From the IMG/VR virus record IMGVR_UViG_3300045999_012878, positions 1 through 23,258 of that record: DNA of 23,258 nt. One strand, written 5' to 3'. Position numbers and translations under genes: made by a program. The notes under the pieces are model-generated. The model saw nothing but the letters and a program-made list of their open reading frames with translations, made no database searches and was not told where the DNA came from. Origin of the DNA: a virus. Shown here in pieces: positions 1,196 through 22,689 of this stretch. Every line of letters begins with the position of its first letter. Within the stretch, counting starts at the first letter, position 1.

Positions 1196-1207
1196 TTTAT
1201 AAATTTT

Positions 1208-3543: not shown

Positions 3544-4679
3544 TATATAAAAATTATATTAGGGTTTATATTATTTAATATATCATTCTTTATTTCTTCA
3601 TTATACCCAGCTGCTCTAAGTATTACTACAGCTTGTTTTATATCCTTAAGTATTTTAGGAGAATTACAAAGTAGATTAGTACCATAAAGTCTTTTGCTTT
3701 GCTTTGTGGGGTCATTATCTAATATACATTCTATATTTTTTGTATTTAATCCAAAAGATATTAAGTACTGTGAAAAGATGTGTGCTCCAAATAGATATAC
3801 AGGTAGTTTGGTATCCTCTATTAGTTTGTTAATATTTGAAACATCTGTTTGGTGGGTATTAATATAATCCTCAAAAACTTGCTTATTATCTTTGTATAAA
3901 GTATTTGATAATTTAAATGTTACTTGGTTATTAGTCTTTTTAGCACAGTAGAAGATACTATGTTCTTCTTTAAAGTACTCCTTCTCTAGTAACTCAAAAC
4001 CATACTTAGCTAAGTAAAACTCTATATATGGTTCTGTAAGATATGCAGTATGTTCGAAATTAATACAGTTAGTATATTTTTTCTTTAACATAGCTTCCAT
4101 ATTTGGTAGAGTAAAAATTAACAAATTTCCTTCTTGTATAAAAGAAGCTTTATGTTCCATAAACTCATCTGGGTTGTATATATGTTCAAGTACATGAGAG
4201 TGTACTATAGCATCAAATTGTTTTTCTGATTTAAAGGTATTATCAAAAAATCTTGTAATAACCTCTACAGGTAGGTCCTCTGGAATTCTTGGATTAGGTT
4301 CTATAATAGTCCATTTAATTTCATTGTTTAATTGTAGTATCTTTTGTGCTAATATTCCATGTAAACCCCCAATTTCTAATACTTGTTTTGGAGCATATTT
4401 ATTTATAAATTCTGCAAATGATTGGTGATGTTCATTCCAGGCTGCCCCCATAGTTCCTGATCCATGTTCCTCACTGTATATTACTTCTAAAGGTAATAAT
4501 GGATTTAGCTGTATCATCCCTGATTCAGGACTAATCTTCCAATTCATATCTGCTAATATATCCTCTGAAGGATCATTTGTTGTACATCCCATGAATACTG
4601 GGAAGTTCTTAAAGGTATGTAGGTCTTCTAAAGTATTACCACCTAGTACTATATCGGCATTTCTAGTTATATAATTCAT
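3543..4679 (-). CDS. SAM-dependent methyltransferase, sugar C-methyltransferase-like
   Basis: A 378-residue three-part protein. Residues 1-95 resemble the N-terminal segment of sugar C-methyltransferases (Methyltransf_13 type), including GMIQLNPLLPLEVIYSEEHG and the W-x-x-H linker, but the usual zinc-binding Cys set is gone; only C32 is near position. Residues about 97-215 form a Rossmann methyltransferase: VLEIGGLHGIL (100-110) is SAM motif I and AIVHSHVLEHIYNPDEF is the family's 'hvLEHi.dP' block. The C-terminal part (about 290-378) with YLFGAHIFSQYLISFGL and CILDNDPTKQ resembles the second Rossmann-like domain of the same family. It overlaps the GatZ-like gene by 17 bases and the HAD gene by one. 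Methylation of a sugar or nucleotide-sugar intermediate is likely, substrate unknown. Confidence 0.68.
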   Translation of the reverse strand: MNYITRNADIVLGGNTLEDLHTFKNFPVFMGCTTNDPSEDILADMNWKISPESGMIQLNPLLPLEVIYSEEHGSGTMGAAWNEHHQSFAEFINKYAPKQVLEIGGLHGILAQKILQLNNEIKWTIIEPNPRIPEDLPVEVITRFFDNTFKSEKQFDAIVHSHVLEHIYNPDEFMEHKASFIQEGNLLIFTLPNMEAMLKKKYTNCINFEHTAYLTEPYIEFYLAKYGFELLEKEYFKEEHSIFYCAKKTNNQVTFKLSNTLYKDNKQVFEDYINTHQTDVSNINKLIEDTKLPVYLFGAHIFSQYLISFGLNTKNIECILDNDPTKQSKRLYGTNLLCNSPKILKDIKQAVVILRAAGYNEEIKNDILNNINPNIIFI

Positions 4680-5637
4680 TTAATTTATTTTTAATGTTAA
4701 ATTTAATTTGTTTATCTATATTAGGAAATTGAGATTTTATTTCAGATAAAAATTGAGGATTTGATAAAACATAATGTCCACAAATTTTTATTAAATCAAT
4801 TTTATTAGTAAATGGATCAAAATCTTCATTAACCCATTTTACCCATTTTTTAGATTCATAACATATGTTAAAAAACTTATCTAATATACTATCTTCTTTT
4901 ATGTTATCCAAATAAGTTTGTGTTTCTATTAAACCAAATTCAGGAGCTATATTAATAGCATCTAATCCTAAATCAAATTTTTCTTTAATAACAGAAACTG
5001 GAATATAATCACCATTATGTTCTTTAGATAGAAGATTATGTTTTTTAGCAACTGCAATCATATTCAATAATCTTTGACTATCATAATGACCAGTTTGATT
5101 TGTTCCTTTCAAAGATGTACCTGATTGGATTACTAGATATTTTATTTTTTTAAATAATCTAGGAGTAAGGGAAAGTTTTAAGTCTTGAACTAATTTATCT
5201 AATTCATCAGGTTCAAATCTTCTAATAGCTTCTTCAGTACCAATTTCAAATTCTATATTAGAATTAAGAGCACCACAAAGTTTGATCATATCAATAGTCC
5301 ATTCTAATCCTTTTTCATAATCAGGATATTTTTTCCAAGGATCTATATGAATCATATTTAAGTACTTACAATCATCAATTAATGATGATATTCCATTATC
5401 ATCAAATTGTCCTTGACCAGGTCCTGAATGATCTCTTTGTAGGGTGATAAAGTTGGATTTTCTCGTAACATAATTTGAAAAATTTTGAGTAGTCCAATCA
5501 TTTACATACCCTCCATTCTCTTCTATTTGCCTACGAGAAGGTATTAATCCTATAGTATTATGAGTTTCATTACAAAATTCAATTATAGTATCTACTACAT
5601 TTTTAGACATGGGTCCAATAAAATATTTTGTTACCAT
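4663..5637 (-). CDS. GatZ/KbaZ-like (tagatose-bisphosphate aldolase subunit-type) TIM-barrel protein
   Basis: A 324-residue protein whose strand-end motifs follow, in order, those of the non-catalytic subunit family of class II tagatose-1,6-bisphosphate aldolases. RRQIEENGGY (35-44) resembles 'sNQVNQFGGYtG'. RDHSGPGQG (68-76) resembles 'GDHLGPN.W'. MIHIDPW (95-101), EIGTEEAIR (131-139), YLVIQSGTS (about 167-174), KEHNGDY (205-211) and INIAPEFG (228-235) match later barrel positions. No partner GatY/KbaY gene lies in the window. The protein is shorter than GatZ (about 420 residues) and divergent, so it may be a stand-alone aldolase, lyase or isomerase acting on a phosphorylated sugar or polyol. 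It overlaps its upstream neighbour by one base (TAATG) and its downstream neighbour by 17, which ties it to the nucleotidyltransferase-kinase and methyltransferase. Fold confidence is moderate; the reaction is not known. Confidence 0.55.
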   Translation of the reverse strand: MVTKYFIGPMSKNVVDTIIEFCNETHNTIGLIPSRRQIEENGGYVNDWTTQNFSNYVTRKSNFITLQRDHSGPGQGQFDDNGISSLIDDCKYLNMIHIDPWKKYPDYEKGLEWTIDMIKLCGALNSNIEFEIGTEEAIRRFEPDELDKLVQDLKLSLTPRLFKKIKYLVIQSGTSLKGTNQTGHYDSQRLLNMIAVAKKHNLLSKEHNGDYIPVSVIKEKFDLGLDAINIAPEFGLIETQTYLDNIKEDSILDKFFNICYESKKWVKWVNEDFDPFTNKIDLIKICGHYVLSNPQFLSEIKSQFPNIDKQIKFNIKNKLNELYN

Positions 5638-7172
5638 TATTTTAGGTTTTTATGTAAATTGTATTTTCCGAAATTAAATAAAAAATTATTAAATGGGTAT
5701 TCATGGAGTGGGGCCATATTAATCCAAATTAATGAAGTTAATATATGAACTTTTTTTAAGTCATACAAATTTTCTACAATAAAAGAGTGTAATAATTCTT
5801 TACATTCATTTAAAGTACTATTAATTAATATATAACAATTATTTGAAGAAGGATTAAATAAATTTTTATTTACTATATCATGATTTACAGTTAAATTATG
5901 ATTTAATTTAGCCAAATCATAATACACATCTCCAATTTCTAAATCACCAGCAAAATCTTGTCTCCAATCAATTAAACAAAACCCATCAATGGTTTCAATA
6001 ACATTATCTAAAATAAAATCACCATGAAATTGACTAGGTAAACCCTCACATAACCAATCTATATCAATAGAATCAATTAGATCATAAATACCTTGAACAC
6101 ATTGTCCATTAATTTGATTACTTTCTTTATTATTTTTTAAATATTGAGCTACTCGTTGTTTAGTTTTTGTAATATAAAAATTATAACATTTTTTCTTAAA
6201 ATATTCATCTGATTTTTCTACCCATAAATTAGTTTGAGTCCAGTTTAAAAATTTATTAAATGATTTAGAATTAACAGACTTAGAAAAAAGTTTACCTTCA
6301 GCTTTCTGATATTTATAGAAATTTTCAGTTGAATCTAATATTTTAGGTACTAAATTTTCTAAATTAAATGCTCTAGTAACTCTATTTTTATTTATTATTG
6401 AGTTTGAAAAAAATTTAATTACAAAATCATCAAAGAAAAATATAGACTCATCTACTTTATCTAGTACTTCAATATTAGAATGAAATATTTTTCTAGTTTT
6501 ATTTAACTCTGTTGTATTTCCAATATCAAACCAATCTTCTCCACTAATTTCTTTTTTAAAGAAATTAACTTCAGATAACATATTATTAATAGCATGTACA
6601 TCTGATGTATCTTCATGTCCATTATTAATTAGTTTTTCTAAATTATAAAAAAATAATTCAAAATCTTTAATACCAGCTATACCAACATATGAGTAATCAA
6701 AATTTAATTCTCCTTTTTCATTTATATTAATTAATTTATTACCATCAACATGCAAAGTTCGGTATTGAGCTGGATCATTTTTATGAGATCCTATAATATA
6801 ATTTATATTGGGAAATTCAGGAGAATAGTTTGTTATTATAGTGTCTGAAGCATGGAATATAAAAGGAGAATTTATATTAGATTTGCATTGTAACAAGGAA
6901 TAACCTAAACTACTACCTGGTCCTTTATAATTATCTATTTCTATAAAAGTAAAATTATAATCAGGATATGCTAATTTAAGGAATTGTTTAACATAAGAAC
7001 CAAAATGACCAAGTGTAATTATAAATTCAATATCCTTAGGGTATGATTCTATAATATAAGAAATAGCAGGTTTATCTGCTATTCTTATTAGGGATTTATT
7101 AGTATAATTAGTTAATTCTCCTAATCTACTTCCTAGTCCACTTGTTGTTATTAATACTTTATAATCTACCAT
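5637..7172 (-). CDS. Bifunctional sugar/choline-type nucleotidyltransferase - APH-like kinase fusion
   Basis: A 511-residue two-domain enzyme. Residues 1 to about 230 are a nucleotidyltransferase: the glycine-rich signature TTSGLGSRLGELT (9-21), K26 in place of the 'K.l' Lys, FHASDTI (106-112) with the metal-binding Asp, and GEDWFDIGNTTEL (211-223) as the closing 'W.DiGtp..L' motif. Residues about 245-511 are an aminoglycoside phosphotransferase/choline kinase-like domain: QFHGDFILDN (381-390) is the catalytic Brenner loop, LIDWRQDF (400-407) gives the metal-binding Asp, followed by GDVYYDLAKL (414-423). One protein can therefore phosphorylate a small molecule and activate it with NTP, as LicA and LicC do separately for choline. 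It overlaps the cupin gene by 14 bases and the GatZ-like gene by one. The substrate cannot be named: sugar, polyol or amino alcohol. Confidence 0.75.
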   Translation of the reverse strand: MVDYKVLITTSGLGSRLGELTNYTNKSLIRIADKPAISYIIESYPKDIEFIITLGHFGSYVKQFLKLAYPDYNFTFIEIDNYKGPGSSLGYSLLQCKSNINSPFIFHASDTIITNYSPEFPNINYIIGSHKNDPAQYRTLHVDGNKLININEKGELNFDYSYVGIAGIKDFELFFYNLEKLINNGHEDTSDVHAINNMLSEVNFFKKEISGEDWFDIGNTTELNKTRKIFHSNIEVLDKVDESIFFFDDFVIKFFSNSIINKNRVTRAFNLENLVPKILDSTENFYKYQKAEGKLFSKSVNSKSFNKFLNWTQTNLWVEKSDEYFKKKCYNFYITKTKQRVAQYLKNNKESNQINGQCVQGIYDLIDSIDIDWLCEGLPSQFHGDFILDNVIETIDGFCLIDWRQDFAGDLEIGDVYYDLAKLNHNLTVNHDIVNKNLFNPSSNNCYILINSTLNECKELLHSFIVENLYDLKKVHILTSLIWINMAPLHEYPFNNFLFNFGKYNLHKNLK

Positions 7173-7503
7173 AATTATCTTCTAATCTTACAATATCATC
7201 TTCTCCAAAATAAGATCCTAATTGAACTTCAATAAAAACTAAATCTTCCTCTCCTGTGTTTTTAATTTGATGTTTAGCTGTCACAGGTATATGAAAGATA
7301 GTTCCGGGTCGGGCAGGAAAGATACTATCATCTAATTTTAAATATCCTGTACCTTTTACAACAACCCAAACTTCTTCTCGTTTAAAATGATATTGGTAAC
7401 TAGGAGCTTGTCCTGGTTTTATTACAATTTGTTTTACTTTACATAACTCACTATCTAGTAAGTTTTCAAACTGCCCCCAAGGTCTTTCTTCTTTATAGTT
7501 CAT
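7159..7503 (-). CDS. Mannose-6-phosphate isomerase type II-like cupin
   Basis: A 114-residue single-domain cupin closely matching the C-terminal isomerase domain of bifunctional mannose-1-phosphate guanylyltransferase/mannose-6-phosphate isomerases. It starts with RPWGQFENL, then KVKQIVIKPGQAPSYQYH with presumed metal ligands Q37, H39 and E44 (REEVWVVVKG). The fourth ligand is H78 (VTAKHQIKN), and it closes with IEVQLGSYFGEDDIVRLED. Such enzymes interconvert fructose-6-phosphate and mannose-6-phosphate, the entry to GDP-mannose. It starts 11 bases inside the end of the epimerase gene, which is the enzyme that would use GDP-mannose. No guanylyltransferase of the usual type is in view, so host GDP-mannose supply or the neighbouring nucleotidyltransferase would have to fill that step. 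Confidence 0.8.
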   Translation of the reverse strand: MNYKEERPWGQFENLLDSELCKVKQIVIKPGQAPSYQYHFKREEVWVVVKGTGYLKLDDSIFPARPGTIFHIPVTAKHQIKNTGEEDLVFIEVQLGSYFGEDDIVRLEDNYGRL

Positions 7504-8554
7504 TATTTACTTGTTTGTTAATCCATTTATAAGTTTTTTCCATACCAACTTTTAGAGGTTGTGATGGTTCCCATCCCATATGTTCTTTATAAAGTTTATT
7601 ATCTGAGTTTCTACCTCTAACTCCTACAGGGCATTTAAAACCATATTTTATTTTAAATTCATCTCCATAGATGTTTTTAACATATGCTCTTTTATTTGCT
7701 ACTTCAATAGCCATTTCAGCTAATTGATTAATAGTAACCATTTCTTCTGAACCTATATTAACTGGTCCTAAAAATTTATCTTGTCTCATAAAACGTAATA
7801 CAGCTTCAATACAATCGTCAATATACAAAAATGATCTTGTTTGTTGGCCATCACCCCACACTTCAATTTTATCATCCATTAAAGATTCAGCTACTTTTCT
7901 ACACATCGCAGCAGGTGCTTTTTCTTTGCCACCTCTCCATGTTCCATAGGGACCAAAAATATTATGGAAACGAGCTACTCTAACATCTAATTTATAATTT
8001 CTATTAAATGCTAAAAATAATCTTTCACTAAATAATTTTTCCCAACCATACTCTGAATCAGGGTTTGCGGGATAAGCTGATGATTCTTCACAATTGGGGT
8101 TGTTAGGATCTAATTGATTATGTTCTGGGTACATACATGCTGAAGAACTATAAAATACTCTTTTAACTGATTTTTTAGAAGCTTCATGAGCTACATTTAA
8201 ATTAATTAAGGCTGAATTATGCATTACATTAGCATCATTATCTCCTGTAAAAATGTAACCAGCACCACCCATATCAGCTGCTAATTGATATACTTCATCA
8301 AATGATCCTTGTTTATCATCTTCAGATTTTTGAATTGGTGAGTACATTACTCTTGATACTAACATAGGATCTCTTAAATCTCCACAGATATATTCATGGC
8401 ATATTTCATCATTATCAAAAAATTCATGATTAGGTTTAATATCAACTACTCTTACCCAAAACCCTTCTTGTTTTAATTTTTTAGCTAAGTGACCACCAAT
8501 AAATCCTCCACCACCTAATACCAAGGCAGTTTTTTTAATATCTGTTATTTTCAT
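7493..8554 (-). CDS. GDP-mannose 3,5-epimerase-like extended SDR enzyme
   Basis: A 353-residue NAD-dependent extended short-chain dehydrogenase/reductase. GGGGFIGGH (14-22) is the G-x-x-G-x-x-G dinucleotide motif. YQLAADMGGAGYIF (89-102), SSSACMYPE (136-144) and YGWEK (169-173, Tyr/Lys pair) follow. FHNIFGPYGTWRGGKEKAPA (196-215) and a late GVRGRNSDN block match plant GDP-mannose 3,5-epimerase almost motif for motif. C140 and K212 sit where that enzyme has its acid/base Cys and Lys. The expected reaction converts GDP-D-mannose to GDP-L-galactose and/or GDP-L-gulose. It overlaps the GT2 gene by 4 bases (ATGA) and the isomerase gene by 11. This is one of the firmest functional calls in the cassette, although substrate specificity needs biochemical proof. 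Confidence 0.85.
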   Translation of the reverse strand: MKITDIKKTALVLGGGGFIGGHLAKKLKQEGFWVRVVDIKPNHEFFDNDEICHEYICGDLRDPMLVSRVMYSPIQKSEDDKQGSFDEVYQLAADMGGAGYIFTGDNDANVMHNSALINLNVAHEASKKSVKRVFYSSSACMYPEHNQLDPNNPNCEESSAYPANPDSEYGWEKLFSERLFLAFNRNYKLDVRVARFHNIFGPYGTWRGGKEKAPAAMCRKVAESLMDDKIEVWGDGQQTRSFLYIDDCIEAVLRFMRQDKFLGPVNIGSEEMVTINQLAEMAIEVANKRAYVKNIYGDEFKIKYGFKCPVGVRGRNSDNKLYKEHMGWEPSQPLKVGMEKTYKWINKQVNNEL

Positions 8555-9168
8555 AATAAATCATATAAATTATTTTGTCTTTCTTGTCTTTCAATATGTT
8601 TTGGATGGTATAAACAATAATCATCCTCTAATGGTAAAGTAGCCCAAGTGCTATGACCCATTAGTACTTCATGTACTTTATTACCCCAATTAATTTTTGG
8701 TGTGTTTTGAAGTATACGAGGTTGTAAATCTGGGAAATTAACCCATCCTTTTTCATTTACATTCCATCTCCATCTTTGAATATGTTCTTGAGTTAATCCT
8801 TCTACAGTATTAATTCTAGGAAGTAAAAATACTTCGGTTGTAGGATTATCTTGTAAAATTAGATGTAAATTTTGTAAAAATTCAACATTTAAATATTCAT
8901 CAGCATCGATTTGAAAAATCCAATCTCCAGTACAATGTTTTTTTAAATTATTTTTAAATGCCGCGAAATTACCTTTTAAAGGGAATTCAATAACAGTTAT
9001 TCTACCATAAAATTGATCTAATACTTTATATACTTCAGATGTAGTATTACCTTGATCACATTGAACTACTATTTCATCTTCATCTCTTTTATTAGTAATA
9101 AGAATACTTAGTAATCTCATTAATTCTTCGTGTTCATTACAAACAGGAATTGCATAACTTATTCTCAT
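8551..9168 (-). CDS. GT2 family glycosyltransferase
   Basis: A 205-residue inverting GT-A glycosyltransferase. ISYAIPVCNEHEEL (3-16) is the typical N-terminal strand and loop. IFQIDADEYL (84-93) contains the D-x-D-E donor/metal site. Near the end, NKVHEVLMG (162-170) and the His/Arg/Gln-rich tail resemble the short SunS/WaaE-type GT2 proteins whose C-termini carry 'KvHE...' and 'H.k...RQ'. It has no membrane segment, so it is a soluble enzyme using a nucleotide sugar. Its last codon overlaps the start of the epimerase gene (ATGA), suggesting coupled translation, and the epimerase product is a candidate donor by context only. Confidence 0.82.
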   Translation of the reverse strand: MRISYAIPVCNEHEELMRLLSILITNKRDEDEIVVQCDQGNTTSEVYKVLDQFYGRITVIEFPLKGNFAAFKNNLKKHCTGDWIFQIDADEYLNVEFLQNLHLILQDNPTTEVFLLPRINTVEGLTQEHIQRWRWNVNEKGWVNFPDLQPRILQNTPKINWGNKVHEVLMGHSTWATLPLEDDYCLYHPKHIERQERQNNLYDLL

Positions 9169-14411: not shown

Positions 14412-14628
14412 AAGTAAAATACATTTGTAATATATCTAATCTATCTTCAGCATCAGCTAACATTCTTAATGCATCCTCAGCATTATTATAAAAATCATTT
14501 GTTGAATGATCCCCAATACCTGAAGGATTTTCTGAGAGAAGATTTAGAGTTAATAATGCTTTAGCTCTATCAGATTCAGCTGATTTTTTAAGCATTTTAT
14601 GTAAATATGGGTTTAAGGGTTGTCTCAT
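14404..14628 (-). CDS. Small hypothetical protein (74 residues)
   Basis: I do not recognise this protein. It appears all-helical, with a basic N-terminus (MRQPLNPYLHKMLKKSAES) and an acidic C-terminal half (DALRMLADAEDRLDILQMY). The start overlaps the clamp loader small-subunit stop by 4 bases (ATGA) and the end overlaps the DUF3310 gene by 8. Coding is supported by this tight packing and by the absence of any other frame that could fill the space. Confidence 0.6.
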   Translation of the reverse strand: MRQPLNPYLHKMLKKSAESDRAKALLTLNLLSENPSGIGDHSTNDFYNNAEDALRMLADAEDRLDILQMYFTYE

Positions 14629-15047
14629 TTTAATAGTTTTTTTATTTCTTTCTCTTCTTTTCCTAATTGTTGTAGGATTAAAGTTATATCTTGTTGGGTT
14701 AAAATATCACAATAATCTAAAACTTCTCTAGTACTTATTTTAAAATATTCAGATAGTAAATTTATTACTTCTTTTACATATTGTTGTTTTATAGGTTTTA
14801 TGTATTTATTAAAAAATTTTTGTTTAGGTAAAGTCTTGCAATAAAATTCATATAACTTTTGTTTTGGAAGTTGATATTCTTGAATCTCAGCTACTAGTTC
14901 AACATAGTTAGGATTCATTGAAATAATTTTATTAATCATAAAATTGTTAAAGATCTCATGCTCCTCATTCGAAAATGAGGACCATGATTCTTTATCATAA
15001 GATATTTGTTTTATCCAATCAAAAATATTATTGATTTTCTTCTCCAT
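14625..15047 (-). CDS. 62: Clamp loader small subunit, gp62-like
   Basis: A 140-residue protein with the pattern of T4-type gp62: an N-terminal IFDWIKQISYDKESW (8-22), FNNFMINKIISMNPNYVELVAEI in the middle, KTLPKQKFFNKYIKP, and a C-terminal helical block ending in STREVLDYCDIL and KEEKEIKKLLK. In T4 one gp62 joins four gp44 subunits to load the gp45 clamp. It is shorter than T4 gp62 (187 residues). It lies two genes after the gp44-like ATPase, with an 82-residue ORF in between that it overlaps by 20 bases. Sequence similarity in this family is weak, so the call rests on pattern plus position. Confidence 0.7.
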   Translation of the reverse strand: MEKKINNIFDWIKQISYDKESWSSFSNEEHEIFNNFMINKIISMNPNYVELVAEIQEYQLPKQKLYEFYCKTLPKQKFFNKYIKPIKQQYVKEVINLLSEYFKISTREVLDYCDILTQQDITLILQQLGKEEKEIKKLLK

Positions 15048-15278: not shown

Positions 15279-16190
15279 TTATTTAGTTGTTAATAATTTT
15301 GATACGCAGGCACAAAAGGTAATTTCTTTATCAGGTGCCATAATTGATTTGTGTTGGTAATCTGCTATTATAAGAGTAGCAATTGCTGAATCGGTGTATT
15401 CATCAGCTCTCTCAAATAGTATTCTATATAACTCATTGTAATCTCTAATATTAGAATCCATTACTAACTGTCTTATAGTAGTAAAATTCTTAGTATTTTT
15501 AGTTTTTAGTAGTTCTATTACTTGATCAGATGTTTGTTTAAAATTAGAGAGTGATCTACTTTGTTGTAATTCTCCATTTTTAATGGATGATTGAAGTAAA
15601 TTCAAACATTTTCTAATATCAGGATATGTTTGTTTAATAATTCTTACTACATCAGCTTTAGTATAAGTAATACCTTCTAAATCTAAAATTTCAACACATT
15701 TAAATGCTACATCTTGCATTGATGGAGGAGTTAATTCAAACATAACAGTTCTAGATTGAATTGGATCAATTATTCTTTCTATAAAATTGCAAGTAAATAT
15801 AAAACGAGCATTTAAACTGTAAGTTTCAATAACATTACGTAAAGCAGCTTGAGCATTAATAGTTAAAAAATCAGCTTCATCCATTATAACCACTTTTTGT
15901 GGTTTAAAACTAGCGGCTGAAACAAACGATTTTACCTTATCTCTAATAGTATCAATACCGTTTTCATCAGAACAATTAATGTAAAGATAATCACAGTTAA
16001 TGTTGTTTACTATTAATTTGGCAGCAGTTGTTTTACCTGTACCTGCAGGTCCTGTAAGTAATAAGTGAGGGATATCATTAGAATCAATCCATTGTTGTAA
16101 TGAAGATTTAAAATCATCATTTCCAATATATCCTTCTAAGGTATCAGGTCTATACTTTTCGGTAAATAAGGTGTGTTTTTTATTGAACAT
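15279..16190 (-). CDS. 44: Clamp loader large subunit (AAA+ ATPase), gp44-like
   Basis: A 303-residue AAA+ clamp loader ATPase. TEKYRPDTLEGYIGND (10-25) is the RFC-box lead-in. GPAGTGKTT (47-55) is Walker A, VVIMDEADFL (100-109) is Walker B with the DEAD-type box, and FIFTCNF (130-136) is sensor 1. IQSRTVMFEL (144-153) stands where clamp loaders have the S-R-C arginine finger; Thr replaces Cys and the Arg is kept. The C-terminal third is the helical collar. With gp62 it would open and close the sliding clamp at primer ends, using ATP. The gene begins 43 bases after groEL, separated by a strong hairpin, so its expression relative to the chaperonin genes may be adjusted there. Confidence 0.9.
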   Translation of the reverse strand: MFNKKHTLFTEKYRPDTLEGYIGNDDFKSSLQQWIDSNDIPHLLLTGPAGTGKTTAAKLIVNNINCDYLYINCSDENGIDTIRDKVKSFVSAASFKPQKVVIMDEADFLTINAQAALRNVIETYSLNARFIFTCNFIERIIDPIQSRTVMFELTPPSMQDVAFKCVEILDLEGITYTKADVVRIIKQTYPDIRKCLNLLQSSIKNGELQQSRSLSNFKQTSDQVIELLKTKNTKNFTTIRQLVMDSNIRDYNELYRILFERADEYTDSAIATLIIADYQHKSIMAPDKEITFCACVSKLLTTK

Positions 16191-16206
16191 AACTTTTATA
16201 ATATAT

Positions 16207-16226
16207 GGAGCCTCTTTCGAGGCTCC
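16207..16226 (-). terminator. GC-rich hairpin with GAAA tetraloop after groEL
   Basis: A perfect 8-bp inverted repeat GGAGCCTC/GAGGCTCC with a four-base loop that reads GAAA on the transcribed strand, a GNRA tetraloop. It begins 7 bases after the groEL stop codon and is by far the most G+C-rich short element in the neighbourhood. On the transcribed strand it is followed by ATATATTATAAAAG, not a clean U-run, so simple intrinsic termination would be weak. RNA 3'-end protection, partial termination or processing between groEL and the clamp loader gene is equally plausible. Confidence 0.65.
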
Positions 16227-16233
16227 AAATTTA

Positions 16234-17874
16234 TTACATCATCCCTTGCATAGGATTGACTTCTTCTTTTTTGTCTTCTTTTTTCTCGTAAATTACAGAT
16301 TCGGTTGTTAAAATTGTACCCGCAACTGAAGCTGCATTTTCTAGTGCTACGCGGGTTACTTTTTTAGGATCGATAATACCTGCAGATTTGAAATTAATTG
16401 TTGATAAGTCTTTATAGTTAAGACCTTCCCAATTGCTTCCTTTTTCTGAGTCAGTTAGTTTGGAACCTAAGTATTGAACTTCTGTTAAATCATGCCCGGC
16501 ATTAGTTAAAATTCGTTGGAATGGAGCAGCTGCTGCTCTATAAACGATTTTCTTACCGTTTACAAAATCATTTGAACCTTCAAAAGTAATACCTTTACGA
16601 GCATATAATAAAGCAGTTCCACCACCAATTACAATACCTTCTTCTAAAGCGGCTTTTGTAGCGAATAAAGCATCTTCTACTCTATCTTTTTTCTCTTTGA
16701 TTTCAAGTTCACTATTACCACCTACGTTAATAATAGCTACCCCACCAATCATTTTACCTAAACGCTCTTGTAATTTTTCTTTCTCAAATGGTGAACCAGC
16801 GTCATCAATTTGTTTTTTAATTTCTTGAGCTCTAGTTTCAATTGCTTCTTCTGATCCTTTACCATCTACAATAGTAGTTTTTTCTTTACCAATTGTAGCA
16901 GTACGAGAAGTACCTAAACATTGTTTTAATGTACTAACATCAATTTTATCAAGTTTATGACCTTTATCTTTAGAAAGAACTTGACCTCCTGTAATAATAG
17001 CTAAATCTTCTAAAGCCATTGTTCTACGATCTCCAAATTCAGGAGCTTTAACTGCTACTACATTTACAATACCTCTCATTTTATTAACAATAGATACAGC
17101 TAATGCTTCTCCGTCAACATCTTCTGCTACTACTAATAATGCTCGTTTTTCAGTGTTAGCTAATGTTAAAGCTGGTACTAATTCATTTACTGTTGTTATT
17201 CTACCATTGTAAATTAAAATGTAAGGGTTTTCTAATACAGCAGTCATTGTATTATTATCAGTTACAAAATAAGGTGATTTGTAACCTCTATCAAATTGCA
17301 TTCCTTCAACAATTTCAAGTGAAGTTTCACCTGATTTAGATTCTTCAATTGCAACAATTCCATCTCTACCTACTTTTTCTAAAGCAGTAGCAATTAAGTT
17401 ACCAATTTCTTCATCATTATTACCTGAAATGGTAGCAACTTCTTTAATTTGTTGGTTATCAGAAATATCTTCTGTTAGGTTGTTAAGAGCTGATTTAAGT
17501 TCTTCTACAGCTGCATCAATTCCTTTTTTAATTTCGATTGGATTTTGACCTGCACTAACATGTTTTAATCCTTCTTCTAGAATGGCATAAGACAATAAAG
17601 TAGAAGTAGTAGTACCATCACCTACTTCATTTGCAGATTTAACTGATACTTTTTTAACTAATTCAGCACCAATTGATTCAATTGGATCTTCTAATTCTTT
17701 AAATTCTTTAGCTACAGATACACCGTCTTTGGTTACTGTTAATTGACCATAATCTCCTTTGATTAATACTGTTCTACCTGCTGGTCCTAAGGTAGAGGAT
17801 ACACTATCATTAAGTTTTTTAACTCCTGATAATAGTTTTGTTTTTAATTCTGTTCCGAATGCTGTTTCTGTCAT
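16234..17874 (-). CDS. groEL: Chaperonin GroEL (60 kDa, Cpn60)
   Basis: A full-length 546-residue group I chaperonin. ATP-site elements are present: STLGPAGR (27-34), TKDG with D50, VGDGTTTSTLL with D86, and EDALFATKAA with D401, matching E. coli D52, D87 and D398. Apical substrate-binding aromatics are kept (Y198, Y202, F203). A late GGGTALL block is also present. The normally near-invariant APGFGDRR reads APEFGDRR here (E279 for Gly). The C-terminal tail is short (NPMQGMM) rather than a long GGM repeat. It starts 2 bases after groES. Phage GroEL is uncommon; T4 brings only a co-chaperonin (gp31) for capsid folding. It would work with the adjacent GroES, probably on phage structural or replication proteins, and could form mixed or separate rings from the host chaperonin. 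Confidence 0.96.
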   Translation of the reverse strand: MTETAFGTELKTKLLSGVKKLNDSVSSTLGPAGRTVLIKGDYGQLTVTKDGVSVAKEFKELEDPIESIGAELVKKVSVKSANEVGDGTTTSTLLSYAILEEGLKHVSAGQNPIEIKKGIDAAVEELKSALNNLTEDISDNQQIKEVATISGNNDEEIGNLIATALEKVGRDGIVAIEESKSGETSLEIVEGMQFDRGYKSPYFVTDNNTMTAVLENPYILIYNGRITTVNELVPALTLANTEKRALLVVAEDVDGEALAVSIVNKMRGIVNVVAVKAPEFGDRRTMALEDLAIITGGQVLSKDKGHKLDKIDVSTLKQCLGTSRTATIGKEKTTIVDGKGSEEAIETRAQEIKKQIDDAGSPFEKEKLQERLGKMIGGVAIINVGGNSELEIKEKKDRVEDALFATKAALEEGIVIGGGTALLYARKGITFEGSNDFVNGKKIVYRAAAAPFQRILTNAGHDLTEVQYLGSKLTDSEKGSNWEGLNYKDLSTINFKSAGIIDPKKVTRVALENAASVAGTILTTESVIYEKKEDKKEEVNPMQGMM

Positions 17875-17876
17875 AA

Positions 17877-18170
17877 TTATTCTTCTATAACTGATAAAAT
17901 ATCATTTTGGTTAGCGATTAAATATTCTTCTCCTTCAAGTTTAACTTTGTGAGTTCCCATTGGTGGTAGTACAACTTTCATTCCTGCTCTTAGATCTGTA
18001 GGAGCATATTCTCCTTTGTTGTAGTTATAAACTTGGGATACAGCCAATATTTCTCCCATAATTGGTCTTTCATTCCCCATATCAGGGATAATGATGTTAC
18101 CCACCATCATTTCTGATTCTTCCATGGGTTTTAGAATAACATTACCGTTTCTCGGTTTTAATTTACTCAT
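17877..18170 (-). CDS. groES: Co-chaperonin GroES (Cpn10)
   Basis: A 97-residue Cpn10. KPRNGNVILKPME (5-17) is the first conserved strand. The mobile loop around 18-30 carries the hydrophobic tripeptide III (26-28), where E. coli GroES has IVL, for docking to the GroEL apical domain. MGEILAVS and AGMKVVLPPMGTHKVKLEGE (62-81) form the barrel, and the end NQNDILSVIEE matches the family ('...dIlavie'). It is unlike T4 gp31 in being of ordinary GroES length and pattern. The start overlaps the 100-residue ORF by 8 bases and the groEL start follows its stop by 2 bases, the usual ES-EL order. Confidence 0.95.
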   Translation of the reverse strand: MSKLKPRNGNVILKPMEESEMMVGNIIIPDMGNERPIMGEILAVSQVYNYNKGEYAPTDLRAGMKVVLPPMGTHKVKLEGEEYLIANQNDILSVIEE

Positions 18171-18465
18171 GATTAATTAAAGTTTTTAGATTGTTTAAAG
18201 TTGTTTCTAATTCAGTGATATACTCTTTAATAGTATAATTAGATTTTTTTTCTGTAACCTGTTCTTTAGCTATACGTTTTAAAGCACTAGATAAATGGGT
18301 ATAATACCCCATTGGCTTTTCTTTTTTAGTTTTAGGTTCAGTAAAAACTAAATTATAACTATCTTCATCAATGATAATTTTGTAATTTCCCATAGCAGGA
18401 TCTTCAATCATTGATCTTTTCTTAACTGTGCCTTTTTGTCGGCCTTTAAAATTGTAATTTGCCAT
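18163..18465 (-). CDS. Small phage protein of unknown function, first gene of the chaperonin operon
   Basis: A 100-residue protein with a basic N-terminus (MANYNFKGRQKGTVKKRS). A small strand-turn-strand core (NYKIIIDEDSYNLVF) is followed by YYTHLSSALKRIAKEQV and a helical C-terminus (YTIKEYITELETTLNNLKTL). This 'short beta hairpin, YY..L..AL..I, helix' pattern resembles small phage proteins often annotated as DUF5405-like; I treat this as a loose resemblance. It overlaps groES by 8 bases and follows an 81-base gap with hairpins, so any promoter for the chaperonin genes probably lies just upstream of it. Confidence 0.6.
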   Translation of the reverse strand: MANYNFKGRQKGTVKKRSMIEDPAMGNYKIIIDEDSYNLVFTEPKTKKEKPMGYYTHLSSALKRIAKEQVTEKKSNYTIKEYITELETTLNNLKTLINHE

Positions 18466-18480
18466 AACTTTTCTTATTTG

Positions 18481-18499
18481 TTTCGTATAAAATACGAAA
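18481..18499. repeat. Perfect 19-base palindrome upstream of the groES operon
   Basis: TTTCGTAT, three bases, then ATACGAAA: an 8-bp perfect inverted repeat centred 25 bases before the start of the 100-residue ORF. It could be an operator for a dimeric repressor or a leader-RNA hairpin. On the plus strand it is followed by GATTTTTTGGG, which would look like a terminator, but no rightward gene ends here. Confidence 0.6.
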
Positions 18500-18518
18500 G
18501 ATTTTTTGGGTATCCAAA
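18487..18518 (-). promoter_or_regulatory. Possible Bacteroidota-type promoter for the groES-groEL operon
   Basis: Reading leftward, TTTG (18518-18515), 20 bases, then TATTTTAT (18494-18487) loosely resembles the Bacteroidota -33/-7 pattern (TTTG, about 19, TAnnTTTG). Two of the last positions of the -7 box do not fit. It falls in one of only two gaps over 80 bases in the window and overlaps the 19-base palindrome, which would make sense for a regulated promoter. Chance occurrence in A/T-rich DNA is a real alternative. Confidence 0.22.
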
Positions 18519-18546
18519 CAAAACTTAACCTAAGGGCATAAGGTTA
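18514..18546 (-). terminator. Terminator-like hairpin after hsp20
   Basis: Immediately after the hsp20 TAA the transcribed strand reads TAACCT, nine bases (TATGCCCTT), AGGTTA, then AGTTTTGTTTGG. A 6-bp stem followed by a T-rich run fits a weak rho-independent terminator in an A/T-rich genome. The stem contains part of an 11-base element that recurs inverted upstream of hsp20. Confidence 0.45.
18528..18538. repeat. Left copy of 11-base inverted repeat flanking hsp20
   Basis: ACCTAAGGGCA on the plus strand, in the gap just downstream of hsp20. The exact reverse complement TGCCCTTAGGT occurs at 19008-19018 in the gap upstream of hsp20. The two copies bracket the gene. Confidence 0.6.
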
Positions 18547-18954
18547 TTATTTTATTTTTATTGATTTTGGTTTTGATTTTTCAGCTACAGGTATAGAAAT
18601 CTCTAGCAAACCATTTTCTAGTTTTGCTACTGCTAAAGATAAGTCATATTTAGCTGAAATTTTATAACCTAAATTAAAGGATTTTTTAGATAATCCTCTA
18701 TGAATTGTACCAGGGTGCAATTCTTTTTCTTCTGAAGGTTTGGTATAACTAATTTTTAAGATATCATCTTCAATATCTACTTTTACATCATCTTTAGAAA
18801 GACCGGTGCACGCTACTTCAAAATGAAGTCCGTCATCGTTATAAAAGATATTTAAAGGGTGAGGTTGTTTTGTGGTTGCTGCTGAACCGAATCCACTTGT
18901 AGGGTAAAAGAAATTGTGGAATAGAATGTCAAATTCATTAAAGTTTGTACTCAT
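18547..18954 (-). CDS. hsp20: Small heat-shock protein (Hsp20/alpha-crystallin family)
   Basis: A 135-residue holdase-type chaperone. A short variable N-terminus (1-33) with the phenylalanine-rich FDILFHNFFYP is followed by an alpha-crystallin beta sandwich: ACTGLSKDDVKVDIEDDILKI is cut here to its core GLSKDDVKVDIEDD (51-64), and the signature A-x3-N-G-L-L occurs at 110-117 (AKLENGLL). The C-terminal SIKIK contains the I-x-I motif (I132, I134) used for oligomer assembly. Hsp20 genes are known in T4-like cyanophages, where they are thought to protect proteins during virion assembly. It stands alone between two gaps of about 80 bases with hairpins and an inverted repeat, so it may be its own transcription unit. 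Confidence 0.9.
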   Translation of the reverse strand: MSTNFNEFDILFHNFFYPTSGFGSAATTKQPHPLNIFYNDDGLHFEVACTGLSKDDVKVDIEDDILKISYTKPSEEKELHPGTIHRGLSKKSFNLGYKISAKYDLSLAVAKLENGLLEISIPVAEKSKPKSIKIK

Positions 18955-18971
18955 ATTGATTTACGTTTTGT

Positions 18972-18988
18972 GAGTGCTTTAGCTACTC
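18972..18988 (-). promoter_or_regulatory. Small hairpin in the hsp20 leader
   Basis: The plus strand reads GAGTGC, TTTA, GC, one bulged T, ACTC. The transcript would fold as a 6-bp stem with one bulge and a four-base loop, 17 bases upstream of the hsp20 start. It might affect hsp20 translation or stability; RNA-thermometer behaviour is speculation, since the start codon itself is not visibly paired. Confidence 0.35.
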
Positions 18989-19007: not shown

Positions 19008-19018
19008 TGCCCTTAGGT
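19008..19018. repeat. Right copy of 11-base inverted repeat flanking hsp20
   Basis: TGCCCTTAGGT on the plus strand, in the gap between the sliding-clamp gene and hsp20. It is the exact reverse complement of the copy at 18528-18538. Confidence 0.6.
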
Positions 19019-19036
19019 CATTTGTCATAAATATTA

Positions 19037-19759
19037 TTACTCATGTAAAGCTACAAGAAAATATTCAGCTTTTACACCTGCTTCTTCTAAGTTAACTTTC
19101 AATAAACCATCTTTATAAAGATATGCTTTACCAACTGCATCTTTGTTTACAGATATTATTTCTCTAAAATTAGAAGCACTAAATGCTACTGGTTTTACTT
19201 TATTGATGATTTTACCAGGTTCAGAAAAATTAACTTTATTTGAATAAGATGATTTTTCACCTATTGTAAAATTAACAACATCTTCATTTTGGAAATCTTT
19301 AGTTATTCCTATTTCAAAACGAGGTGGTTTATCTAATGCATTGTGTGCTTTAATATACTTTTGAGTAAAATCAAAATTAATATCAAATTCTAGATCATGT
19401 GGTGGTAAATTTGGAGCTACACCTGGATCCTGAATTAAACCTAGATCACTTAAATTATAAGATAAATCAAATTGATTATCACTAATATGTAATTTTAAAA
19501 AGTGGTTGTTTTGTTTTTCTAGTTTTAATTCAATAAAATCATTTGTAATATTAAGTAATTTAAGCAATTGACCAGTATTAAAGATACCAATCTCGCAATC
19601 TTCTAAGGTTATAGGCGCTATAACTTCTCCAATACAGTCTTTATTGTCAACTGCAAATTTAATGTGAGCTTCGTTGTTTTTTACCTTAAATTTAACTTGA
19701 GATGTTAAACCATTTAAATAAAAACTTTCAATAATTTGTGTTAATATTATTTTATCCAT
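19037..19759 (-). CDS. 45: DNA polymerase sliding clamp, gp45-like
   Basis: A 240-residue protein of the size of T4 gp45 (228 residues), with the two-domain beta-rich layout of trimeric phage clamps. Domain 1 (about 1-110) contains FNTGQLLKLLNI (60-71). The central interdomain stretch contains LGLIQDPGVAPNLPPHDLEF. Domain 2 has FSASNFREIISVNK. The ring encircles DNA and tethers the polymerase; in T4 it also activates late transcription. The start codon overlaps the stop of the polymerase C-terminal gene by one base (TAATG). Identification rests on motif order and its position between polymerase and clamp loader genes. Sequence similarity is low, as is usual in this family. Confidence 0.82.
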   Translation of the reverse strand: MDKIILTQIIESFYLNGLTSQVKFKVKNNEAHIKFAVDNKDCIGEVIAPITLEDCEIGIFNTGQLLKLLNITNDFIELKLEKQNNHFLKLHISDNQFDLSYNLSDLGLIQDPGVAPNLPPHDLEFDINFDFTQKYIKAHNALDKPPRFEIGITKDFQNEDVVNFTIGEKSSYSNKVNFSEPGKIINKVKPVAFSASNFREIISVNKDAVGKAYLYKDGLLKVNLEEAGVKAEYFLVALHE

Positions 19760-20694
19760 TAGTTGAATGTAAAAAATTTATGTATTAGTGGATTTGCAGG
19801 TGGTAATTGCCATTCTAAATCATCATAAAAACCTTGTAATTTGTTTTGTAATATAGTTTCAAAACTTTTACCTCTATCAATATATTCATTAATAAAATTT
19901 CTAATTTTATTAGCCATATCAAATTCTAGAAAAGCAATTGCTTCTATATTATACGGATTATTTTTTAAATAAACCCATTTTATTTTATCACCTTGTACAA
20001 TTTGACTATGTTTAGAATCTAATTGCCAAAATCTTAATAAATCATTATGTTTAATAGCTGCTTTAACTGATGCACCTGCTCCTTGTTTTATTTCAGATAA
20101 TATTTTACCTGGTCTAGGATGTGAAGCAATATATTCATTTAGTGTTTTAACTGCTGTTGGATTACCAATTAATGTAAAATCAACATCAGATGAAGTAGCT
20201 TCTTGTCTAAATTCATGAATTTTTTTATCTACGATACTTTGTGGAGTACCTTTAATAATTAGTTCAAGAATTTCTTGATAAAATTTACCAAAATATTTTG
20301 GAAAATTAGCTTTTTTAAATTCTAATCCTTTAATATCAAGTTCTTCTTTGATAATACCTTCTTTTTTAGTAATCCATTGTGCATAACGTCTTGTAGCTCT
20401 AAAATAAGCAGAACGAATAACACACTCGGTTTTCATTTCTAATCGGTGTGTACTAACATTAAAAGCTTCTTTAGCTAAAATGTTATAATATTCTGTTATA
20501 ATATCTTGATATTTAAGAGCTACTTTTTCTAATAAATCATCTTTTTCTTGATCAGTTTTCTCATCAAAATCAGGATATAAGTGTTTTAATAAAGGTTCAG
20601 CATTAAAATAATTAGAGTCTGTATCCACATAGGCGCAAAAATTAAAATCACCTTCATCACAAATCCACCATGGGGTATCTTCTAAATGTTTCAT
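19759..20694 (-). CDS. 43B: Family B DNA polymerase, C-terminal part (motif C, thumb)
   Basis: A 311-residue protein that completes the polymerase. CAYVDTDSNYF (20-30) is motif C, with the catalytic D24 and D26. RATRRYAQW (99-107) matches the K-K-R-Y palm/thumb motif. LDIKGLEFKKANFPKY (119-134) matches the 'lkimGmE...s..Pk' thumb block of T4/RB69 gp43, and the rest follows gp43 to its end. The tail IHKFFTFN is an aromatic clamp-binding type peptide like the C-terminus of gp43. Added to the N-terminal part (576 residues) the total is 887, close to T4 gp43 (898). The first 18 or so residues have no clear gp43 counterpart and may form the interface. It starts one base after the ORF87 stop and overlaps the clamp gene by one base. 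It cannot act alone because motifs A and B are on the other chain. Confidence 0.93.
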   Translation of the reverse strand: MKHLEDTPWWICDEGDFNFCAYVDTDSNYFNAEPLLKHLYPDFDEKTDQEKDDLLEKVALKYQDIITEYYNILAKEAFNVSTHRLEMKTECVIRSAYFRATRRYAQWITKKEGIIKEELDIKGLEFKKANFPKYFGKFYQEILELIIKGTPQSIVDKKIHEFRQEATSSDVDFTLIGNPTAVKTLNEYIASHPRPGKILSEIKQGAGASVKAAIKHNDLLRFWQLDSKHSQIVQGDKIKWVYLKNNPYNIEAIAFLEFDMANKIRNFINEYIDRGKSFETILQNKLQGFYDDLEWQLPPANPLIHKFFTFN

Positions 20695-20695
20695 A

Positions 20696-20959
20696 TTAAA
20701 ATGTTCTTTCTCCTGGTACTGGGGGTAAATTAATAGGCCTGTTACCTTTTGAATCTATATCAGATCTTTCTTTAAGAATTATTTCAAATGAATTTTTATT
20801 AATCTTACATCTGCCTCCTTGTTGTAGCATTTTTTTAAAAAATTTTTCTTGTAAAGCATCCCAACTTTTAGATAATTCAATAACTAATTGTTTTTCAACT
20901 TTAGAACCATTTATATAAATAGTAGTTCCATTTTTAATGGATTGTCCTTTTAATGCCAT
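20696..20959 (-). CDS. ORF87 lying between the two DNA polymerase parts
   Basis: An 87-residue, Lys-rich protein that I do not recognise. It contains a short strand pair (GTTIYINGSKVEKQLVI) and an amphipathic helix (SWDALQEKFFKKMLQQGG), then a strand segment (KINKNSFEIILKE) and a Pro-rich tail (INLPPVPGERTF). It has no intein blocks, no GIY-YIG, LAGLIDADG or HNH motif, and no polymerase sequence. Its start overlaps the stop of the N-terminal polymerase gene (TAATG) and the C-terminal gene starts one base after its stop, so all three are probably translated in fixed proportion. It could be a third polymerase subunit, a remnant of the element that split the gene, or a passenger. Confidence 0.7.
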   Translation of the reverse strand: MALKGQSIKNGTTIYINGSKVEKQLVIELSKSWDALQEKFFKKMLQQGGRCKINKNSFEIILKERSDIDSKGNRPINLPPVPGERTF

Positions 20960-22689
20960 TATATTTCTAATTTAATTTCTCCTCTTAATACTTTGTTCAT
21001 ATGTCTGTTAGCACAAAGTGCTGATTCTTGAATAATACGTTGTCCACTTAAAGTAATTGCTTCTGATAATATTACATTTCCATATCTAAATGTAGGTAAT
21101 GCAGTAGCACCATAAAGTGAATTAAGTAAGATTTTCATTGTATATTGTAATAAATGGTATTTTTCACCTCCTACTGTATCACCTGCTTTATAAGCTGCTT
21201 TCATTTTGTTTTTATATAAAACTCTTTCATCAAACCATTTATTCAAAATAGTTGATAATACGGACTCTTTATCTGTACGAAATATAACACCATTTGCTGA
21301 GATAGCCAAATTATATTGCTGAAGTAGTTTAACTATTTTAGAAGAAGTCCAATCAATTTTATTGAATTTATCTTTATTAGCAAACCATTCAGTAGTACGA
21401 GGTTTATCTTCAGTATCATTAATTAAATCATTTAAACCTAAACGATTATTTCTATCATTGAAATCAATAATTCTACCTACTAATGTTTCTTTACCAATAT
21501 TAAGAGACATAATAATTGAAGGATATAGCGAAGTTAAATCTTCATCAAACATGTAACGGTATAAACCTGCTTTAGGACAAAATAAATAACCTCCAGCATA
21601 ATTAGCTTTTTTAATAGGATTTCTATCTCTAGAAGGTGGTACTATACCTTCAGATAATAAAAACGCTGAAATTGCACCATCATGAATTTTAGATGATTGG
21701 TAAACATCATCATAATGGATTTTACCTTTATGTGATAAATTTTTAGTTAAACTAATATAATTGAATTTGTTGTCTAATGCTTTTAAGATTTCAACATCTC
21801 TAAAGTTATATTCAATAAATTTTTCTTTATCAGTTTCAAATAACCTATCTAAGCTACCTTCATATTCAATTTTAGATAATTTACAGTATCTTTCTCCTAA
21901 TGCATCTAATTTATAAGAAGGTTCATCAGCAAATGAATATTTTTTATGTAAACGAAGATAATCTAAAGAGTAAACACCTTCAATCCTTATAGGTTGATCT
22001 TCATCATAAATTATAACTCCATCATCTCTGGTGTATTTTTGTTCTTTAATTTTACCTATTGGAGATAAAGCACTAGCTCTACGTTCGCCTAATTGATTTA
22101 AAATTCTATAATAAAGATAAGGTATATCAAAATAATCACTATTATAACCAATTAAAATATCAGGACTAACTTTAGTTAAATAATTTAACCATTTATTTAA
22201 TAACTCTCTTTCATTAGGTACAGGGATAATATGTTTATTTCCTACAGTAGTTTTTTCAATTTTATTTTCTTTGTCTAAAATTAAAATATACCATTTATCT
22301 TCTTGTTTATGCCACCAAGCAATTGAAGTAACGGGTTTTGGTGCTTTTCTGATATATTCAGGAGTAAGAGCACCACCCATTTCAATCTCAATATCAAAAA
22401 ATATTTCTTGATGTGTAGTTGAAGGTTCATCATTTATACCGTACTTATCAATCAAAAATTTTTGATGTACAGGCATATCATGATAATGGATAAATGGATT
22501 ACTTCCTTCCCAATAAGTAACTCGTTTTAAGGGTTCTCCATTTAGACCAAAATGTGTAGCCTGGTCTTGGCCACACACTTCATAAGCATAGTTTTGGAAT
22601 TCATATTGTTCTACTCCATCATCGGTCCATAAGATAATATTATATCTGTTTTTACCCAATGAAGTAGTTGATATATTTTTATAACTCAT
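20959..22689 (-). CDS. 43A: Family B DNA polymerase, N-terminal part (3'-5' exonuclease, palm motifs A and B)
   Basis: A 576-residue protein corresponding to the first two thirds of T4-type gp43. FFDIEIE (97-103; D99, E101) is Exo I. GYNSDYFDIPYL (181-192; D185) is Exo II. YNFRDVEIL (294-302; D298) is Exo III. DLTSLYPSII (384-393; D384) is palm motif A. The fingers carry R489/K493, and KILLNSLYGA (519-528; K519, N523, Y526) is motif B. The chain stops at GEIKLEI shortly after motif B, just before motif C would come, so it has an exonuclease but an incomplete polymerase active site. It should assemble with the C-terminal product encoded 265 bases further on. The start has AAAGG 8 bases upstream, one of the few Shine-Dalgarno-like sites in the window. 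The previous gene ends 18 bases before it. Confidence 0.95.
   Translation of the reverse strand: MSYKNISTTSLGKNRYNIILWTDDGVEQYEFQNYAYEVCGQDQATHFGLNGEPLKRVTYWEGSNPFIHYHDMPVHQKFLIDKYGINDEPSTTHQEIFFDIEIEMGGALTPEYIRKAPKPVTSIAWWHKQEDKWYILILDKENKIEKTTVGNKHIIPVPNERELLNKWLNYLTKVSPDILIGYNSDYFDIPYLYYRILNQLGERRASALSPIGKIKEQKYTRDDGVIIYDEDQPIRIEGVYSLDYLRLHKKYSFADEPSYKLDALGERYCKLSKIEYEGSLDRLFETDKEKFIEYNFRDVEILKALDNKFNYISLTKNLSHKGKIHYDDVYQSSKIHDGAISAFLLSEGIVPPSRDRNPIKKANYAGGYLFCPKAGLYRYMFDEDLTSLYPSIIMSLNIGKETLVGRIIDFNDRNNRLGLNDLINDTEDKPRTTEWFANKDKFNKIDWTSSKIVKLLQQYNLAISANGVIFRTDKESVLSTILNKWFDERVLYKNKMKAAYKAGDTVGGEKYHLLQYTMKILLNSLYGATALPTFRYGNVILSEAITLSGQRIIQESALCANRHMNKVLRGEIKLEI

Follow-up and report, generated by a model that had tools for sequence, protein, structure and literature searches.

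The 23,258-nt virus record IMGVR_UViG_3300045999_012878 (analysed from position 1 to 23,258 and referred to below as the window) encodes the chaperonins GroEL and GroES and the small heat-shock protein Hsp20 in intact frames, all on the minus strand, between genes for a sliding clamp and a clamp loader. It probably derives from an Immutovirus-like phage that keeps an inherited GroES-GroEL pair downstream of an exchanged DNA polymerase, together with a separable late hsp20 unit whose mRNA would be clasped at its ends. The directly supported part of this account, shown so far as sequence can show it, comprises homology, synteny, a single phage clade, purifying selection and intact active sites. 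A DNA polymerase swapping study covering Immutovirus (divPolA1) phages reported that the neighbourhoods of the regular polymerase in this group, whether PolA, PolB or PolC, all encode GroEL or GroES (PMC11348598). With that association published, the neighbourhood itself is not new, and the arrangement with PolB, clamp, clamp loader and Hsp20 is a variant of it; the new part is the set of regulatory signals, namely an early motif, a late motif, the clasp and a bulged-A hairpin.

Membership of the divPolA1 group was scored in G004 (173 kb) and G005 (168 kb), two relatives that are near-complete; the window is a 23-kb fragment that lacks the divPolA1, Gp23, portal and TerL genes. Both relatives encode divPolA1 and a T4-type Gp23 capsid protein, and they match Flavobacterium phage vB_FspM_immuto (immuto) at 34-36% identity in divPolA1, 60-61% in TerL and 61-62% in the portal protein. 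SSB, RecA, DnaB, primase, tail tube, baseplate wedge and the major capsid protein (MCP) are also common to immuto and these relatives, and GroEL and GroES lie near the regular polymerase in the window and its relatives. On account of these common genes, the window lineage is assigned to the divPolA1 (Immutovirus-like) T4-type phages, a placement based on gene content and homology. Its host is probably a member of the Bacteroidota, by analogy with that of immuto. Among deposited phages, DNA matching aligned only groEL, at 65-72%, and a tblastn search of 50,697 phage records with Hsp20 gave no match at 1e-5.

In a maximum-likelihood tree of 60 GroELs, the sequences of the window group, of relatives with PolA at this locus (the PolA group) and of immuto form one clade (support 100/100), separate from 29 bacterial GroELs of Bacteroidota and other phyla. 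A quick tree of 80 rows gives the same picture; some phage branches in it are very long and of uncertain place. The first-pass annotation had proposed GroEL phylogeny as a check for recent host capture; nesting of these phage GroELs within host sequences was not found among the bacteria sampled, and recent capture is rejected. The GroELs of Bacteroides phage DAC19 and of the Vibrio phages retained in the tree, in contrast, are nested within bacterial clades, so phages have acquired groEL several times, separately. Between immuto and the relatives G004, G005 and G015, GroEL identity is 53-55%, against 56-57% for MCP, 56-61% for TerL and 52-58% for RecA. The phage-only clade, this capsid- and terminase-like divergence, the intact catalytic residues and a ratio of nonsynonymous to synonymous substitution rates (dN/dS) of about 0.11 together indicate that the acquisition of groEL in the window lineage is old and that the chaperonins have since been inherited vertically.

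The genes around the chaperonins have a different history. In relatives at about 60% GroEL identity, PolA lies directly upstream of hsp20-groES-groEL, and in G015 and immuto the chaperonins directly follow PolA without a clamp or clamp loader. In the window group, a split PolB, the clamp and the clamp loader surround the same chaperone genes. No blastp-detectable homologue of the window PolB, clamp, gp44 or gp62 occurs in G015 or immuto, and PolB was not found in the PolA-group relatives other than L056. It had been proposed that the chaperones lie inside a T4 replication module as an insertion; the PolA relatives turn that proposal around, since their chaperonins stand after PolA without clamp or loader, and it is the replication genes that would have changed around the chaperonins. 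Parsimony likewise favours constant chaperonins and exchanged replication genes.

The chaperonin pair appears to be functional. In GroEL, the ATP-site residues D52, D87, D398, GDGTTT, GG414-415 and D495 are all identical to those of E. coli, and the residues that contact GroES and substrate (Y199, Y203, F204, L237, L259, V264 and N265) are kept, with only conservative apical changes (L234V and V263I). The ATP site, the apical residues and a cognate GroES with a mobile loop are thus those of a type I chaperonin, and the comparison with E. coli bears out the first-pass description of both proteins. Among close relatives, median dN/dS is 0.11 for GroEL, 0.24 for GroES, 0.12 for Hsp20 and 0.29 for orf100, the small gene between hsp20 and groES; the clamp, loader and polymerase genes lie at 0.10-0.13 (loader 0.11, polymerase 0.12). 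These values and residues support a functional, selected and phage-dedicated chaperonin pair.

The position of the pair raises the question of its clients. Placement there specifically for folding the replisome (clamp, loader and polymerase) is suggested by the fact that the chaperonins adjoin the polymerase gene in both PolA and PolB genomes, and by the unrelated Cellulophaga phage phi40:1, also of Bacteroidota, in which two exonuclease genes flank Cpn10 and GroEL, a few genes downstream of PolA. However, the chaperonins stayed through a change of family in the polymerase and its accessory factors, which argues against co-adaptation to one replisome, and in the T4-type Vibrio phage phiKT1024 (L188) GroEL lies between the tail sheath and tail tube genes (5992-7572). 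With a GroEL in a tail gene block, position does not predict client proteins. The known client of T4 gp31 is the capsid protein gp23, which also counts against a replisome-specific role, and we consider such a role unlikely.

A scan of viral contigs with the window GroEL returned 80 relatives. The order clamp-GroES-GroEL-gp44 is kept in 30 other IMG/VR contigs, making 31 with the window, and hsp20 is present in 25 of the 31 (24 of the 30 others). In the six contigs without it, the clamp and orf100 are separated by only 50-60 bases; hsp20, both clasp arms, the late motif and the leader hairpin are present or absent as one block. The recurrence of the same junctions in 30 other contigs excludes assembly chimerism, the explanation that the first-pass annotation had named as its own possible undoing. 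Taken together, a recent capture of host groESL or a chimera at 16200-18960 has almost no probability left: the local G+C content is slightly raised (0.31-0.33 vs about 0.27), but this is expected of conserved GroEL, the GroELs form a phage-only clade, and phage elements (the gene orf100 and promoter motifs) stand in between the chaperone genes.

The hsp20 gene is distinguished by an RNA feature of its own. Its leader is complementary to bases just past its stop codon (TGACCTAAGGGCA with TGCCCTTAGGTTA in the window), so that a helix, here termed the clasp, would join the two ends of the gene. The arm sequences vary by lineage (e.g., TGTGAGTAGGCC, TACTTGGTAGGCC, CAGGCAGGC, CGCAGGTACG and GACTCTAGGGCGAG), yet complementarity is kept. 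Of 66 contigs, 62 have the helix, and L037, L042, L057 and L083, which lack it, are judged truncated at the hsp20 5' end. A contig's own arms score 30.2 in pairing, against 15.3 after arms are swapped between contigs without a common 7-mer. In a 12-pair helix compared across 14 distinct arm pairs from the PolA group and L056, 91.7% of positions are paired and seven pairs have changed on both sides, whereas pairing falls to 19-46% when the register is slid. Free folding of the window RNA also recovers the clasp (z -4.0). When genes are ranked by complementarity of their flanks, hsp20 stands first of 239 in G004 and first of 195 in G015. Base pairing of the clasp is thus shown, in the way that covariation can show it.

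Between the 5' arm and the start codon lies a second element, a leader hairpin. It has a bulged A, then two base pairs and a loop that is usually four bases long, and its stem is compensated among lineages (GTTC/GAAC, GCTC/GAGC, GAGT/ACTC and GCTG/CAGC). A blind search with a 24-base hairpin sequence against 2.9 million viral contigs retrieved 41 stretches, of which 38 were newly fetched, with several of the contigs overlapping the first contig set. Thirty-six of the 38 have a complete downstream open reading frame (ORF), and in 36/36 this ORF encodes Hsp20 with the arms and the late motif. Two wider interpretations of the clasp were rejected. A general occurrence at late genes of this phage group is contradicted by the late-motif sites, which overall score like shuffled sequences, and by the first rank of hsp20 genome-wide; a general occurrence at phage hsp20 genes is contradicted by the cyanophages (58 distinct loci). 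Searches of Rfam gave no relevant match for the hsp20 RNA elements, thermometers included, even at E 5.

The coming and going of hsp20, arms, late motif and hairpin as a block would also fit DNA elements, namely a recombination site or the termini of a cassette that can insert. That explanation is quite improbable: across clades the arms retain complementarity but not sequence, the loop holds a second and independently compensated hairpin before the start codon, and neither a recombinase nor a target duplication was seen. Somewhat more room must be left for an RNase III-type processing stem that cuts the hsp20 mRNA from a polycistronic transcript, as around 16S and 23S rRNA. A long helix around the whole gene, exactly between hsp20 and the groES operon, is what such a stem would look like; the core helix, however, measures 9-18 bp in many genomes, which is short for RNase III, and this possibility is regarded as doubtful. 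Thermometers are common among the leaders of bacterial small heat-shock protein genes (PMC3669281), and in E. coli the IbpA protein binds to its own leader (PMC10474464). With a conserved bulged-A hairpin shortly upstream of the hsp20 start codon, a heat sensor of the ROSE-like type or an IbpA-like self-repression site can be envisaged here. Nevertheless, the start codon lies outside both conserved elements, most of the hsp20 leaders show no evident Shine-Dalgarno sequence to occlude, and Rfam returned no thermometer match; a role of this kind seems improbable. On balance, and with some reserve, we favour the view that hsp20 forms a late RNA unit of its own, closed end to end by a covarying clasp around the whole gene and the bulged-A hairpin, and representing a new class of structured phage mRNA that would set chaperone stability or translation independently of the early groES-groEL operon.

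A separation of hsp20 from groES-groEL is also suggested by the promoter motifs. In G005 and G004, the regions upstream of genes are strongly enriched in an early-type motif, TTGG-N15-TTCGTATATT, the core of which occurs in 29/116 such regions in G005 vs 0.3 expected. Its copies concentrate in regions of small unknown ORFs, as are typical of early genes, and the structural region has none. The window holds one match (0.04 expected), with one T for A in the core, upstream of orf100, where many relatives have the motif too. A late-type motif, ATATTTAT, precedes structural genes in 14/21, 23/39 and 10/21 cases vs 0.7, 1.7 and 0.8 expected, and it lies about 75-100 bases upstream of hsp20; counted from the first base of the TATTTAT motif, the 5' arm of the clasp begins 13-24 bases further on in most contigs. 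Downstream of groEL, a hairpin is found before gp44 in 26/34 contigs, with compensated stem changes among relatives. With an early motif upstream and this hairpin downstream, the chaperonin operon looks set off from its replication neighbours, and hsp20 appears to be a separate late unit rather than part of the early set. The suggestion that the locus provides dedicated folding early in infection is thus supported for the chaperonin pair, given its constraint, its residues and the early-type motif before orf100-groES-groEL, and does not extend to hsp20 with its late-type motif. As a side observation, two genome-wide promoter-like motifs split putative early from late genes in an uncultured T4-type lineage (G004 and G005).

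Several observations weigh against this overall account. At the polymerase locus, L056 carries an unsplit PolB, the clamp, hsp20, groES and groEL on a contig that ends soon after groEL; with PolB and clamp it nonetheless groups with the PolA set, at an open fork, and the polymerase exchanges may have run in either direction and more than once. The inter-ring residues of GroEL are not conserved across the phage clade (E434N, R452Q, S463/V464 absent), so the ring architecture may differ, and a single or loosely paired ring may be formed. The absence of hsp20 from 6/31 contigs (L022, L024 and L027-L030) indicates that it is dispensable. In G004, the raw score of hsp20 is tied with that of an AT-rich match at another gene. 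The arms of alignment A4 were picked by hand, which leans towards structure; the arm-swap and blind-retrieval controls are independent of them. Finally, the promoter classes are assigned from motif enrichment and gene context.

The features of the locus are collected in the following table. That Hsp20, GroES and GroEL lie between clamp and clamp-loader genes, as first annotated, is confirmed by frames, profiles and a structure model of the clamp. The clamp ORF has no profile match; an AlphaFold model from 12 relatives matches PCNA chains (best PDB E 7e-13), and on structure only the ORF is predicted to encode a sliding clamp of the gp45/PCNA type. Of the "complete chaperone set" once described, all three genes are present, but the trio is not contiguous, as orf100 separates hsp20 from groES, and Hsp20 is not universal among the contigs. 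The weak phrog_154 match of orf100 recurs in 12/12 relatives scanned (best 2e-7), and each genome has one Cpn10.

Features of the chaperone locus and its neighbours in the window (aa, amino acids; E, expectation value; pLDDT, predicted local distance difference test).
Feature	Position	Strand	Evidence
groEL, 546 aa, type I chaperonin	16234-17874	-	Pfam Cpn60_TCP1 E 1e-61
groES, 97 aa, GroES-type, mobile loop GNIIIP	17877-18170	-	Pfam Cpn10 E 1e-18
orf100, 100 aa, conserved, overlaps groES start	18163-18465	-	phrog_154 (replication initiation protein) E 1.7e-5
hsp20, 135 aa, small heat-shock protein, C-terminal I-K-I motif	18547-18954	-	Pfam HSP20 E 3e-13
Sliding clamp (gp45/PCNA fold, predicted), flanking	19037-19759	-	predicted structure, pLDDT 86
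Clamp loader large subunit (gp44-type), flanking	15279-16190	-	phrog_168 E 5e-85
Clamp loader small subunit (gp62-type), flanking	14625-15047	-	phrog_225 E 1e-20
Split family B DNA polymerase, around orf87 (20696-20959)	20959-22689 + 19759-20694	-	profiles
Clasp 5' arm TGACCTAAGGGCA, hsp20 leader	19008-19020	-	covariation
Clasp 3' arm TGCCCTTAGGTTA, begins 8 bases past hsp20 stop codon	18526-18538	-	covariation
Bulged-A hairpin GAGT-A-GC-TAAA-GC-ACTC, hsp20 leader	18972-18988	-	compensated stem
Early-type promoter motif TTGG-N15-TTCGTATTTT, upstream of orf100-groES-groEL	18489-18517	-	motif scan
Late-type promoter motif AATATTTAT, directly after clamp gene	19027-19035	-	motif enrichment
Hairpin GGAGCCTC-GAAA-GAGGCTCC, closes chaperonin operon before gp44	16207-16226	-	compensated stem

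PolB is broken in such a way that its N part retains motif B (NSLYG) and its C part motif C (DTDS). The 87-aa ORF between the pieces recurs in relatives covering the region, while the unsplit PolB of L056 measures 860 aa. After the replication block, positions 236-9168 of the window hold glycosyltransferase-like, epimerase, nucleotidyltransferase and methyltransferase genes, partly common to immuto; this run of genes suggests phage-directed modification of glycans or the cell surface.

The following scheme may connect these elements. The GroES-GroEL pair would have been kept in its old position directly downstream of the DNA polymerase, while the polymerase at the locus was exchanged between lineages, with PolA in some and a split PolB plus gp45, gp44 and gp62 in others; such an exchange leaves the chaperonins flanked by clamp and clamp-loader genes. 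GroES and GroEL would encapsulate phage proteins in the manner of a normal chaperonin; they would be made early, from their own sigma70-like promoter, so as to fold abundant phage proteins later, with the downstream hairpin setting the operon off from gp44. Hsp20 would be made late, when structural proteins peak, from an mRNA with clasped ends, and the clasp would most likely protect this mRNA from decay and insulate it from the downstream groES-groEL message. The story is thereby corrected from chaperonins invading a replication module to replication genes exchanged around an old chaperonin locus, and the locus lends itself, as a natural experiment, to asking which of the two, replisome or virion, phage chaperonins serve. 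Within Rfam 15 and the literature searched, the hsp20 clasp seems to be an mRNA architecture undescribed for phages, and it is present in dozens of environmental phage contigs.

Among known systems, immuto is the closest comparison. It resembles G004 and G005 in divPolA1, SSB, RecA, DnaB, portal, TerL and MCP (34-62% identity), and it resembles the window group in a GroES-GroEL pair that adjoins the regular polymerase and in downstream genes for DUF3310, PD-(D/E)XK and glycosyltransferase proteins. Unlike the window group, it has PolA and neither clamp and clamp loader at this place nor Hsp20; the window group, for its part, has the split PolB, gp45, gp44, gp62, Hsp20 and orf100. Phage-borne GroEL is also found in Bacteroides phage DAC19, T4-type Vibrio phages, Pseudomonas phage EL and Cellulophaga phage phi40:1. 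In DAC19 and the Vibrio phages, unlike in the window, the GroELs fall among bacterial ones and represent separate acquisitions, and the chaperonin of phage EL, with about 22% identity to GroEL, shows no interaction with E. coli GroES (PMC7185714). The window GroES is comparable to T4 gp31 as a chaperonin cap supplied by the phage; it differs in being GroES-like and accompanied by its own GroEL, rather than a co-chaperonin without one. The earlier generalisation that T4-type phages bring at most gp31 does not hold, as GroEL occurs in T4-type Vibrio phages and hsp20 in cyanophage S-ShM2.

In S-ShM2, as in the window, Hsp20 is encoded within a T4-type replication cluster, between regA and gp43 (PMC5028025). 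Cyanophage hsp20 genes, in contrast to that of the window, have no flanking helix, with an average score over the 58 distinct loci of 17.6 vs 16.7 for shuffled and 18.0 for swapped arms. For RNA structure tied to an upstream late promoter, the nearest parallels are the T4 leader hairpins of e, soc, 49 and I-TevI, which sequester the ribosome-binding site locally and whose 5' strand is missing from late transcripts (PMC3014915). Sequestration of the start codon or Shine-Dalgarno sequence by a strand upstream of the late start was not found for hsp20. Unlike the T4 hairpins, the clasp has its pairing partner past the stop codon, and its 5' arm lies downstream of the late motif.

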